The position numbers were made by a program, and so were the translations under genes. DNA of 23,707 bases from a virus. The notes beneath the pieces are model-generated. The model was not told the origin of the DNA. It did not search any database and saw nothing but the letters and a program-made list of their open reading frames with translations. The stretch covers positions 1 through 23,707 of the IMG/VR virus record IMGVR_UViG_3300044630_001514; one strand, 5' to 3'. Position 1 is the first letter of the stretch. The number at the start of each line of letters is the position of its first letter. Shown here piece by piece: positions 11,258 through 23,702 of the stretch.

Positions 11258-11659
11258 ATGGAATACATCATTCGTATTAATCCAATTGAAGCATTCGGGA
11301 CGTTAGCAACACGTTTGCACGTTCGTTTGTTTTATGTTCTTTATGGGACAACTCAAAACTGTTTCATTGAGTATAAGACCTTTGATGGTCAAATGATGTA
11401 CGCAAAGAACTTGACTATCCCTGAAGAAATCATTTCTAAGTGGGGTGTGAATGATGACCTTATCTTAAAGTATATTGTTAAAGCAGAAAATGTAACTATT
11501 GATGACTCTCCTGTTTATATGGTTGATGAGCAAGCACAACTTCAAACTAAAGAAAAGTTGGCTACACCTACAGAGGTTGATTATCAATCTACAGAAGAAA
11601 TAGTTGCAGAGGCATTAGTAGATGAAACAGTTGTTCCACCTTTAACTGCTGAAGGATAA
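11258..11659 (+). CDS. Phage protein of unknown function upstream of the holin candidate
   Basis: I do not recognise this 133-residue protein. It has no membrane segment or signal peptide. The first 90 residues alternate strands ('EYIIRINPIEAF', 'NCFIEYKTFDG') and a helix, and include W-G-V-N-D-D-L-I-L-K-Y-I-V. The last 40 residues are acidic and probably disordered. Its stop overlaps the next start by one base (TAATG), so it is co-translated with the lysis genes. Function is open. Confidence 0.65.
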   Translation: MEYIIRINPIEAFGTLATRLHVRLFYVLYGTTQNCFIEYKTFDGQMMYAKNLTIPEEIISKWGVNDDLILKYIVKAENVTIDDSPVYMVDEQAQLQTKEKLATPTEVDYQSTEEIVAEALVDETVVPPLTAEG

Positions 11660-11958: not shown

Positions 11959-12391
11959 TAAGGGATTAGAGTTAATTAAGAAGTATGAAGGGTTTAAAGC
12001 TAAACCTTATTTATGCCCAAGTTCGGTAAGCACTATCGGTTATGGTGCAACCTACTACGAGAATGGTACTAAGGTAAAGCTAACAGATACACCAATCACT
12101 AAGGAACGAGCCACAGAACTACTGATGGCTCTTTTAGTTCCCTTTGAGAAAGCAGTAGATTCTTACTGCGTAGATACAATTAATCAGAACCAGTTTGATG
12201 CTTTATGCTCTTTTGTTTATAATTGTGGCTCTAACGCATTAAAGACCTCTACCCTACTCAAGAAGCTTAACAAGAATCCTCAAGACGTTACAATTCGTAA
12301 CGAGTTCCTTAAATGGAATAGGGGAGGAGGCAAGGTTCTTGCAGGATTAACCAAAAGAAGGCAAGAGGAGGCAGACTTATACTTCTCCTAA
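11936..12391 (+). CDS. Phage lysozyme (GH24 muramidase, endolysin)
   Basis: This 151-residue enzyme cuts the glycan strands of peptidoglycan at lysis. The GH24 active-site block is clear: 'KKYEGFKAKPYLCPSSVSTI' followed by G-Y-G, with catalytic Glu at residue 18. The third triad residue Thr is at 33, and the middle position (Asp20 in T4 lysozyme) is Cys27, giving an E-8aa-C-5aa-T arrangement. Further family elements are 'QNQFDALCSFVYNCG' and, at the end, 'LKWNRGGGKVLAGLTKRRQE'. I start it at ATG 11936; an upstream TTG at 11921 is in frame but has no support. No signal peptide or SAR segment is visible, so export through a holin is expected. Confidence 0.9.
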   Translation: MKITKISSKGLELIKKYEGFKAKPYLCPSSVSTIGYGATYYENGTKVKLTDTPITKERATELLMALLVPFEKAVDSYCVDTINQNQFDALCSFVYNCGSNALKTSTLLKKLNKNPQDVTIRNEFLKWNRGGGKVLAGLTKRRQEEADLYFS

Positions 12392-20244: not shown

Positions 20245-20599
20245 ACATTTTAAGGTCTAAACCATATTCTTCCATTAAGCTATTAACACGATTGTTAAGT
20301 TCTAACTTCTTAGCTTCTTCCATTGTGTCCATTTGTAATCCTAACTCAAAGAAGAACTTCATAATACCACTAGCATTTACAAATTGCTCTACAACATTTT
20401 GCATATCAACTCCATCACCATTTTGTGATTTAAAGATGTGGTCAACATTTTTCTCTAACTCAATCTTTAATTGGTTAGTCAATAATTTAACCTTTCGGAC
20501 ATTACCTGATGACCTTTCCCAATCATCCTCTATAAAGTCATAAAGGAACTGGCAATGGCTGTAGTAAAGCAAGAATTTGTTTGTTTGGGATTGTTTCAT
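20228..20599 (-). CDS. Helical protein of unknown function
   Basis: This 123-residue protein is almost entirely helical, starting with an aromatic-rich segment ([15 protein letters not shown]) and including '[20 protein letters not shown]' and '[20 protein letters not shown]'. No family is recognised. The start overlaps the stop of the HNH endonuclease gene by four bases (ATGA), and the stop lies within the NTPase-like gene. Confidence 0.6.
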
Positions 20600-21162
20600 G
20601 CTAAAATAAAATTTGTGTCGTTTGGTATTAAATTTCTAAGCTTGTATTGAAGTTTTATATAATTGTGATTAACTGATTTAGCTGCCATTTTAATATTATC
20701 AAAATAAATACCGCTATTAGTATTAAGAACCATTTTTTGATTTACTGTTCTTAATCTATTTTTATGTTCTTCACTAAATACAATTAAATTATTTGCCCAA
20801 GCATGATCTACATTTTGCTGATGACTACACCATTCTAAATTTTCAAGTCTATTGTCTGTCTTAATTCCATTTTTATGGTTAACAAAAGGATAATTGTTGG
20901 GATTATCTAAAAATGTTAAACATACAAGCCTATGAACTTTGCAAACATGATTTTTTTTATCATAAAAAATACCAACTACTAAATAACCTTGAGAGTTTTT
21001 TACATTAGTAAGTTCTTTGGGCTTACCCGTACGATTGTAGTTTTTGCTAATAACTTTACCATAATTACTTACTAAATATAATTCAGGTGCAGTTGGAAGT
21101 TCTTTCCAAATTTCTTTTTGTGTCATTTGTTTGGGTAGTTTTCGGTTAATATTCTTCTTCAT
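20596..21162 (-). CDS. HNH homing endonuclease with NUMOD4 domain (first copy)
   Basis: This free-standing homing endonuclease has 188 residues. Residues 17-40 form a NUMOD4 DNA-binding motif ('[20 protein letters not shown]'). The HNH nuclease core spans about 77-120: V-H-R-L-V with His77, V-N-H-K-N-G with His96, and N-R-L-E-N-L-E-W. The C-terminal 50 residues resemble a helical repeat that reads DNA next to the cut site (IENR1/NUMOD1-like, [15 protein letters not shown]). I start it at ATG 21162; the preceding TTG has no support. It overlaps both neighbours by a few bases, so it is translated within the operon and does not interrupt a visible gene. Confidence 0.85.
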
Positions 21163-21259
21163 CAAATCCTAGTAGCTTATTCATTAAAACAAATGGTAAG
21201 CATACTAGAAATATTGTGATGGCTAAAGTCCAGGTTAAGATGTTTCTTATAAGAATCAT
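21146..21259 (-). CDS. 37-residue single-helix membrane peptide
   Basis: The ATG at 21259 shares a base with the stop of the upstream gene (TAATG). The peptide starts M-I-L-I-R-N, has one membrane helix ('[17 protein letters not shown]', about residues 10-26) and ends with an acidic tail G-F-D-E-E-E-Y. It overlaps the HNH gene start by 17 bases. Function unknown; the basic-then-acidic flanks suggest a fixed orientation with the tail outside. Confidence 0.6.
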
Positions 21260-22273: not shown

Positions 22274-22377
22274 ACTTCAGATAATTTAAGGATGAAATGG
22301 GCATATAAGAAGAATAATACGGCAAGTACCCAGTAGGCAATTGCTACAAGCTTTGAATAATCATTGTCATCTTTCAT
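22270..22377 (-). CDS. 35-residue single-helix membrane peptide
   Basis: The ATG at 22377 overlaps the HNH stop by four bases, and the TGA overlaps the next ATG by four bases; both junctions are ATGA. The peptide is M-K-D-D-N-D-Y-S-K followed by one membrane helix ('LVAIAYWVLAVLFFLYAHFI'). Perfect coupling on both sides argues strongly that it is translated. Function unknown. Confidence 0.65.
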   Translation of the reverse strand: MKDDNDYSKLVAIAYWVLAVLFFLYAHFILKLSEV

Positions 22378-22895
22378 ATATAAACTAATGAAGTGTTATT
22401 ATTTGATTTTCCGTTTAGCATTCTATATAATGAACTATATTTAATGTTATTTTCTTTAGATGCAAGTGTAATTGATTCATAAATAACTCCATTGCTATTA
22501 TTTAAAACTCTTTTACAAACAACAGCTTTCATAGCTTTAAAAGCATTTTCACTAATTTTATTTAAACCATTGGCAAAAGCGTGTTTTTGATTTTCTGAAG
22601 CAGTAACCCATTCAAGATTGTTAATATTATTATTAGTCTTAACACCATCAAAGTGGTTAACATAATCTTTATTTTCCTTTTTATATAAAAAACTAATTGC
22701 AACTAGCCTATGTATGAGAAAATGTTTTGCATCGCCATTCTTACATAGTGAAATAGAATTATACCCATTACGATCTAACTTCTGCTTTAACATCTTTTCT
22801 TTCTTTGTAAATTGATTACCCAAAGACTTAACATTACCTAAAGTGCTTATTTGATAAATCCCTTCATATCCGATAATATCTTTCCAAATTTCCAT
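22374..22895 (-). CDS. HNH homing endonuclease with NUMOD4 domain (second copy)
   Basis: This 173-residue protein has the same architecture as the one at 20596-21162 but is clearly divergent. NUMOD4 is at residues 1-25 (E-I-W-K-D-I-I-G-Y-E-G-I-Y-Q-I-S), the HNH core about 62-106 (I-H-R-L-V with His62, V-N-H-F-D-G with His81, N-N-L-E-W), and a C-terminal DNA-reading repeat follows (N-N-S-N-G-V-I-Y-E-S-I-T-L-A-S-K). It stands free in the operon and ends with an ATGA overlap onto the membrane peptide gene. Upstream lies a 118-bp AT-rich gap with a weak CCCA/TGGG hairpin. Confidence 0.85.
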   Translation of the reverse strand: MEIWKDIIGYEGIYQISTLGNVKSLGNQFTKKEKMLKQKLDRNGYNSISLCKNGDAKHFLIHRLVAISFLYKKENKDYVNHFDGVKTNNNINNLEWVTASENQKHAFANGLNKISENAFKAMKAVVCKRVLNNSNGVIYESITLASKENNIKYSSLYRMLNGKSNNNTSLVYI

Positions 22896-23013: not shown

Positions 23014-23202
23014 CTACTTATTCTCTCCTTCGTGCAATAAATAAACTGCAACAAATGACTTAAAAAGTTGCTGCCAGTGCTTACCAAATCTTTCTTCAAC
23101 TTCTACCTTTAATCTAGTTGGTAATCTTACTGAAATTACGGATGTAGGCTCAAGTCTTGGTCTGCCCGCTTTGCGTAAATTTTGTGGTGTTTTTTCTTTC
23201 AT
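23014..23202 (-). CDS. Ribbon-helix-helix (CopG-like) regulator candidate
   Basis: From ATG 23202 the protein has 62 residues. A basic N-terminal arm (R-K-A-G-R-P-R) is followed by a strand T-S-V-I-S-V-R-L-P, then helix 'TRLKVEVEERFGK' and helix F-K-S-F-V-A-V-Y-L-L. Strand-helix-helix with a short basic arm is the ribbon-helix-helix DNA-binding fold, which acts as dimers on operator repeats. A longer reading from 23259 would run through the promoter box at 23228-23235, so I reject it. It may bind the 12-bp repeats at 23564-23650, which are nearby, but that is inference. Confidence 0.6.
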   Translation of the reverse strand: MKEKTPQNLRKAGRPRLEPTSVISVRLPTRLKVEVEERFGKHWQQLFKSFVAVYLLHEGENK

Positions 23203-23266: not shown

Positions 23267-23542
23267 TTACAAATATTTTATTACAAGTATTAGGGTTAAA
23301 AAAATATTTAAAATAATTATTGATCCTAAAAAAATCCCGACTAAGAGAATTATATTTTTCTCCAGGAAATTTAAAAATCTTTCCCAAAATTTTTTGGGAC
23401 TATGACCAATCTGCCCTGTAAGAGCCCGACCAACTTTTCCTGCATTTCCTTGCTTTCGAAATAGCTTATTTAGAATCATTCTAATTACTGTAAAATGGTT
23501 AATTCTATTTATCGTTTTTGGTAATTGTTTATAATTGTTCAT
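23267..23542 (-). CDS. Small membrane protein of unknown function
   Basis: This 91-residue reading has a basic N-terminal half (M-N-N-Y-K-Q-L-P-K ... 'LNKLFRKQGNAGKVGRALTG') and a C-terminal membrane helix (about residues 65-88, 'ILLVGIFLGSIIILNIFLTL'). It is the first gene of the leftward arm after the repeat region. The leader AATTTAAATACAAAATATT before ATG is A-rich as elsewhere. The basic half with a tail anchor suggests a cytoplasmic domain held at the membrane. No family is recognised, and a 17-base inverted repeat inside (23382-23399) raises the chance that this is partly non-coding. Confidence 0.45.
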   Translation of the reverse strand: MNNYKQLPKTINRINHFTVIRMILNKLFRKQGNAGKVGRALTGQIGHSPKKFWERFLNFLEKNIILLVGIFLGSIIILNIFLTLILVIKYL

Positions 23543-23563
23543 AATATTTTGTATTTAAATTGT

Positions 23564-23650
23564 TTTTAAGGTACTATAATTGGCTTTTAAGCTACTCAAA
23601 TAGTGGAGGCAATACGATTGCCTATTTAAGTCTAAAATAGTTGCTTAAAA
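23564..23650. repeat. Three copies of a 12-bp motif TTTTAAG[GC][TA]ACT
   Basis: Copies are at 23564-23575 (TTTTAAGGTACT), 23585-23596 (TTTTAAGCTACT) and, inverted, 23639-23650. The two direct copies are 21 bp apart, two turns of the helix, so they face the same side. Two shorter relatives (TATTTAAG) are at 23623 and 23681. The region is non-coding. Confidence 0.55.
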
Positions 23651-23702
23651 TCAAAGTATTAAAGTAATTAGGCAATAAGGTATTTAAGGCTATTAATAAG
23701 CC
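23607..23702. other. Hairpin-rich non-coding region at the right edge
   Basis: Perfect inverted repeats follow one another: AGGCAAT/ATTGCCT at 23607-23623 (loop ACG), CTATTT/AAATAG at 23622-23640, and GGCT/AGCC at 23688-23702. AGGCAATA recurs at 23670-23677. No reading frame, promoter box or tRNA was seen. The region continues beyond the window. Confidence 0.5.

Follow-up and report, generated by a model that had tools for sequence, protein, structure and literature searches.

What does the gene-free, repeat-rich DNA at the right edge of the virus record IMGVR_UViG_3300044630_001514 do? The record, analysed over its whole length of 23,707 bases (the window), carries its early genes on the minus strand, the last of them coding for a DnaB-type helicase according to the list of open reading frames (ORFs) and a family search, and the DNA in question lies at the head of these genes, at the contig edge. 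A first, sequence-only reading of the window had described repeated motifs and hairpins there, beside a candidate DNA-binding regulator, and had proposed an operator cluster or a replication origin. The stretch belongs to an element that is a real, conserved and paired control site in a group of uncultured phages. With a probability of roughly 0.55, the element is a phage operator/promoter site, one of two per genome, that controls early operons, most likely via a 62-aa ribbon–helix–helix (RHH)-like protein; this reading is favoured over a replication origin, which is its main rival.

The element and its sites

Relatives of the window were collected from IMG/VR by scans with the 62-aa protein (4 loci) and with RusA (20 loci), and the alignment of the intergenic DNA of 14 relatives with the window revealed one conserved element, which ends where the ORF of a 91-aa protein starts. 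When whole records were searched with a model of the DNA sequence, the same element of ~105 bp was found to head the same early operon in 19 of the 23 related records. Two copies were present in 18 of the 23 (E 2.8e-5 or better, the second copy in G013 matching half the model only) and one copy in G008, with third matches being weak (E ~1e-3 or worse, e.g., in G007, G008, G010 and G019). There was no convincing copy in G005, G007 and G011 (best E 0.007, 6.7e-4 and none, respectively), whose contigs stop before the site, and no element in the outlier G021 (= L025). L009, L011 and L015 lack a main copy, their contigs stopping short of it.

The main DNA alignment holds 19 of the 20 main copies (all except L039) and 9 of the 18 second copies, those outside it being an inverted group together with L005, L013 and L039; smaller alignments hold 15 main copies in one case and 9 in another. 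At least 7 columns per arm are invariant in the 19 main copies. For L021, L022, L023 and L024, blastn aligned the element (74–79%) and the gene of the RHH-like protein, but not most of the 91-aa ORF that lies between them. Exact matches to AGTNNCTTARA were counted in 11 long records of the 23; 29 of the 48 matches fell inside elements, which make up less than 1% of the DNA, and the reversed control pattern occurred 0–1 times per record.

A DNA-pattern scan of viral contigs returned 45 stretches, 11 of which scored above 70 bits with the main-copy profile, all of them from this phage group and L043 being the sole new record; weak matches below 20 bits, such as those in L046, L062 and L063, are probably unrelated. 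(In L063, a different virus record, similar AT-rich inverted-repeat stretches lie ~850 bp apart, at 11295–11385 and 12143–12233; these are the weak, probably unrelated profile matches.) A further scan with the 76–77-aa gene upstream of the element gave 5 loci and no new records. The element was not found (E 1 or better) in 5 cellular genome contigs with RusA relatives, and neither was the RHH-like protein, which was also not found in L025. Literature searches on RHH proteins with iterons, on origins of Bacteroidetes phages and on RHH control of early genes listed nothing that was recognised as the element, the exact element itself not having been queried.

The 28 aligned copies (19 main, 9 second) are built in the order L, centre, R1, R2. 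L and R1 face in opposite directions and have the common 21-bp consensus AGTnnCTTAAAAnCAAAnTAT; the 12-bp motifs of the sequence-only reading are the cores of these sites. The features in the window are:

23540..23674, minus strand (early-operon direction): the conserved element in full (main copy), matched by the profile along 135 positions
23639..23659, plus strand: site L, AGTTGCTTAAAATCAAAGTAT; 26.5 bits, the top match in the window
23597..23638, no strand: the centre between L and R1, 42 bp, with a conserved TATT-type core
23576..23596, minus strand: site R1, AGTAGCTTAAAAGCCAATTAT; opposite in orientation to L, the starts of the two lying 63 bp apart; 22.4 bits, the second-best match
23555..23575, minus strand: site R2, AGTACCTTAAAAACAATTTAA; abuts R1 directly (21-bp phase); 10.4 bits, the fourth match
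23688-23702, no strand: a small palindrome upstream of the element, GGCTATTAATAAGCC; perfect stem of only 4 bp

The scores come from a matrix of L and R1 sites from which the window was excluded, and the best value in 100 first-order Markov simulations was 18.4 bits; with the same matrix, a site outside the element, at 310–330, reached 18.5 bits. The score of R2 is within the random range when taken alone, and this site is supported by its exact core and its constant place in the 28 aligned copies, in all of which R1 and R2 join without a gap. The centre measures 42 bp in 24 of the 28 copies and 40 bp in the other 4, with no conserved hairpin. Among the main copies, L and R1 were found together in 15 of 15 loci, spaced by 63 bp (start to start) in 12 and by 61 bp in 3, using a matrix that had been built from these same main copies and for which 0.75 chance matches per 16 kb are expected. 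Thus, in these loci as in the window, several copies of one recognition sequence cluster at the operon head.

How does this compare with what the first reading had seen in the window? Its three copies of a 12-bp motif, two in phase and one inverted, are indeed there: exact copies of AGTNNCTTAAA lie at 23565-23575 (minus), 23586-23596 (minus) and 23639-23649 (plus), within 85 bp, the two in phase forming a 21-bp tandem pair. The window holds 5 exact copies in total, 3 of them in the element, against a mean of 0.90 in shuffles, and 0 of 100 shuffles reached 5. With one mismatch allowed there were 13 matches against 19.3 expected, i.e., no excess, and therefore only the exact core is rare; with the relatives aligned, the repeat unit becomes the 21-bp site. 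The two shorter relatives of the motif are present as well (23623-23634 and 23681-23692), but relatives preserve the first in part only and do not preserve the second. As to the three perfect hairpins, two are perfect in the window (AGGCAAT-ACG-ATTGCCT at 23607-23623 and GCTTTTAAGC at 23583-23592) but not conserved across relatives, whereas the third, GGCTATTAATAAGCC, has the short stem given above; its counterpart stem is kept in 7–9 of 9 relatives, depending on the pair, the window not being among these. For the most part, the hairpins arise as a by-product of the dyad, together with a palindrome specific to the window.

The stretch had also been called free of genes, with the caution that it might prove to be coding when extended. 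It stays non-coding: neither in the window nor in the four relatives whose ORFs were listed does an ORF reach across the entire element (floor 50 aa, or 55 in one listing), and a coding role is rejected for these sequences. In L016, an 80-aa minus-strand ORF overlaps the element partly.

The second copy

A second, diverged copy lies upstream of the main one in 18 of the 23 records, 2,048–3,516 bp away from start to start (mean 2,660), the distances in G002 and G016 being counted round the circle. A profile of main copies only, trained on no second copy, found 8 of these (E 7e-15 to 1e-4) and then a ninth in L043, and the later model found 9 further second copies outside its own alignment, in which the other 9 of the 18 were included. 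In four loci (L007, L016, L021 and L023), a gap of 1.1–1.7 kb that separates the gene adjacent to the large terminase from the accessory operon contains the second copy. The large terminase matches PHROGs terminase families; its neighbour matches only PHROGs families of unknown function, and the label “small terminase” is not claimed for it.

The same gap holds a second dyad family, TCTAAATAA...TTATTTAGA, and of the 15 sequences scanned for it, 6 have inverted pairs with a spacing of 63–64 bp and 6 have pairs with a spacing of 72 bp. By eye, its arms are ~22–25 bp long in L016 and L023, and they differ between these two, yet stay complementary:

L023 3554-3626 and 4658-4738; L043 2146-2218 and 3231-3311: second dyad family
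L014, L016, L017, L018, L022 and L024: second dyad family, one or both pairs

A dyad around a spaced centre is reminiscent of recombinase and partition sites, and together with the place of the second copy beside the terminase genes it would suit a DNA-processing site, used in packaging, recombination or partition. The ends of several contigs would suit it too: the window, G002 and G016 end less than 200 bp from the main copy, G015 begins 76 bp ahead of the second copy, and G005, G007 and G011 end shortly upstream of the gene for the RHH-like protein, these seven contigs coming from loci that had been picked through nearby genes. However, 16 of the 18 records with two copies contain them one after the other within the contig, contigs open at many places, and a tyrosine integrase was absent from the 12 records in which it was sought; processing is a very unlikely function. 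A fixed genome end is ruled out by the scattered contig openings, even though several contigs end near the element.

The search just mentioned covered 12 long records of the 23 and found neither the tyrosine integrase family PF00589 (0/12) nor the HTH_3 repressor family PF01381 (0/12), the controls being positive in 14 of 14 cases and serine integrases and other repressors not being searched. Because both families are absent, a lytic cycle is suggested for the phage group.

Protein-bound DNA, folded RNA or origin

A structured RNA, be it a leader, an antitermination element or an attenuator, would fold as one long hairpin, and the early strand of the window does fold better than its shuffles (z −3.1); the same holds for L019, L017 and L020 (z −3.3 to −3.6). 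The cells at the arm pairs of the 19 main copies also lean to RNA, G–T outnumbering A–C by 28 to 15, and over a longer region in 9 relatives 4 of 34 predicted pairs show two-sided change. Over all 19 main copies, however, the mean z is just −1.85 for the whole element (−1.28 for the other strand) and −0.64 for the centre, and in the 9 second copies the balance is the opposite, A–C exceeding G–T by 15 to 8. Of the nine consensus pairs of the outer arms in 15 sequences, five are invariant and one has changed on both sides, with a covariation term of −0.38 (+0.15 over the longer region), and no Rfam family matched at the element in the 6 sources searched. An RNA structure was thus rejected, in view of the little compensatory change found by folding and in the alignments and of a centre hairpin that is not conserved, and it is the least probable of the explanations weighed here. 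Since the hairpins are not conserved as structure and their pairs show little compensatory change, the best reading of the alignments is that the element is protein-bound DNA, nearer to a symmetric protein site than to RNA.

Which protein, then, and for what purpose? The sites could be iterons for a phage initiator, with the AT-rich flank being melted for the DnaB-type helicase and the second copy serving as a second origin or an accessory site. The ~21-bp sites, tandem and inverted, do lie in non-coding, AT-rich DNA; a DnaB-type helicase is among the products of the operon, as is a 158-aa protein that matches the C-terminal part of phage replication initiators (phrog_270). This match, however, covers only positions 177–253 of 383, and the initiator-like gene lies ~7.4 kb away in the window and not next to the element. 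Each copy has only two or three sites, of which R1 and R2 alone are in tandem, L being inverted. DnaA boxes are not enriched in the window (2 found against 4.6 expected), and an origin would leave unexplained both the terminators described below and the constant place at the operon head. It is therefore considered unlikely, and the alternatives of the first reading, operator cluster or origin, are weighed here in favour of the operator, with neither of them proven.

That a promoter would be needed at this place is suggested by the terminators. In the two genomes scanned, three forward tandem terminator-like hairpins of the AGGGCTTTTAGCCCT type lie between the accessory and the replication operons (L007 6919-6999, L010 6107-6189), where 0.3 and 0.6 would be expected by chance. 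With terminators upstream of the element, the downstream operon should have its own promoter there, and the replication-operon promoter would therefore lie between the terminators and the 91-aa ORF. Between the terminators and the element, a purine-rich stretch, ATACAGGGCAAAAGAAAGGG, is conserved with small variations in L007 (7049-7068) and 8 relatives.

Candidate regulator, control scheme and known systems

The first two genes of the operon, in the order in which they would be read from the element, are:

23267..23542, minus strand: first operon gene, 91-aa protein with a hydrophobic C-terminal stretch (ORF list); start ~12 bp past R2
23014..23202, minus strand: second operon gene, 62-aa ribbon–helix–helix-like protein, candidate binder; fold predicted only

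The 91-aa protein has no relative in viral contigs and no family match. The gene of the RHH-like protein is present in 23 of 24 sequences, the exception being L025, which is also without the element, and it lies downstream of 20 of 20 main copies, the window included. The alignment of this protein holds 17 of the 23 sequences (L011, L014, L015, L018, L022 and L039, mostly near-duplicates, were omitted). In the single-chain AlphaFold model, an extended N-terminus is followed by helices at residues 29–39 and 43–59, with a mean pLDDT of 73 and a pTM of 0.42; “ribbon–helix–helix” is a reading of the sequence pattern and the order of the helices, made with a single-chain model of middling confidence. 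Foldseek and VIA-align returned nothing useful for this model. The candidate regulator of the first reading is thus retained as a neighbouring gene for 62 residues, but one whose product has no match in Pfam, PHROGs or among solved structures.

From these observations we infer protein binding, the identity of the binder, a promoter and repression, as follows. The binder would be a DNA-binding dimer or tetramer, most likely of the 62-aa RHH-like product, that occupies the inverted pair of 21-bp sites, L and R1, with R2 as a weaker target and all three on one face of the helix. Binding would turn off, or pace, the early replication operon, the first ORF of which begins just past R2. This protein would also occupy the second copy, which lies 2.0–3.5 kb upstream with the terminase genes on one side and the accessory early operon on the other, and one factor would thus set both blocks. 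The reading as a protein site is supported because the pairs of the outer arms are mostly invariant (5 of 9), with two-sided change in 1 of 9. A bolder version would be a lambda-like switch of two clusters 2–3.5 kb apart, in which the tiny RHH protein bridges the clusters, loops out the accessory early genes and times accessory, replication and late transcription in a lytic manner, in phages without detectable lysogeny genes; this is quite unlikely, more so than an origin.

Several observations weigh against an operator/promoter bound by the RHH-like protein. The RHH fold is unconfirmed, the 62-aa protein matching nothing in Pfam, PHROGs or the Protein Data Bank (PDB), and the co-occurrence of its gene with the element lies within one related phage group and is therefore weak evidence of binding. 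The Bacteroidota promoter consensus TAnnTTTG, taken from PMC6847099, has no constant position around the main copy in the 18 loci scanned, and it is absent from the window's early strand, whose upstream part is limited to 42 bp. L010, L013, L017, L019 and L020 align through the element and the 91-aa ORF alike, at 65–67%, with no contrast in conservation. The sites are consensus-like: none of the 6 exact matches in G020 falls in its elements, the main copy of G010 has none, and R2 exceeds the threshold in only 4 of 15 main copies. With the 21-bp matrix, at least one site was found in the second copies of 12 of 15 loci, but L and R1 both in 3 (L018, L023 and L043), and the second copies are therefore clearly diverged. 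Finally, the second copy scores better when reversed in G006 and G015–G018, and partly in G013, which is at odds with a simple promoter, though an operator could work in either orientation.

The phages themselves have no close record: the matches of the helicase, the terminase and RusA are all below 60%, and the 62-aa protein has none. The listed best matches of the large terminase of L007, a relative of the window, include phages of Bacteroides, Parabacteroides and Flavobacterium (36–44% identity), and relatives of RusA at 45–50% are found in Sphingobacterium, Bacteroides and Porphyromonadaceae contigs; the host of the group is therefore probably a member of the Bacteroidota, as judged from sequence. 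Within the early operon of the window there are two HNH endonuclease genes (NUMOD4 and HNH_3; 22374-22895 and 20596-21165). An accessory early gene of L023 (5567-6109) has PHROGs matches to a RusA-like family and to a DNA polymerase processivity factor family. Right after RusA, the Rfam tRNA family matches in L016 (8353-8467, 36.7 bits) and L023 (8347-8468, 30.5 bits) at a threshold of 29, and ARAGORN reports neither.

The element provides a defined, conserved control site and a candidate regulator for uncultured phages, probably of Bacteroidota, in which phage gene control is, in our judgement, little mapped. If the reading as paired clusters holds, phages with no detectable lysogeny genes would have a layout like that of lambda, and the element could be used as a bait for the variable early genes between the two copies.

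Among known systems, the put RNA elements of HK022 also come as two structured-looking copies per phage genome at early transcription units; unlike put, the element shows no conserved RNA pairing, and in the two genomes scanned terminators precede it. Iteron origins, of the lambda O type or of iteron plasmids, share with it the ~20-bp repeats, the AT-rich DNA and a replicon with a DnaB-type helicase, whereas the element is not beside an initiator-like gene, has two copies per genome and has its main sites inverted. The RHH autoregulators Arc, Mnt and CopG are likewise small proteins with an extended N-terminus and two helices, here encoded just downstream of repeated AT-rich sites, and for RHH tetramers of this type operators near 20 bp are usual; unlike them, the 62-aa protein has no family or structure match and is a candidate binder only. 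From OL/OR and CI of phage lambda, the element differs in several respects: the HTH_3 repressor and tyrosine integrase are absent in 12 records, an RHH-like protein is the candidate binder, a 42-bp interval separates the inverted sites L and R1, R2 is tandem and weak, the sites of the second copy are diverged, and looping is putative. The likeness to the lambda OL/OR pair, as described in PMC5880393, is one of layout only, i.e., two clusters some kilobases apart (2.0–3.5 kb; 2048–3516 bp in 18 of 23 records) with, by alignment, three 21-bp sites in each.
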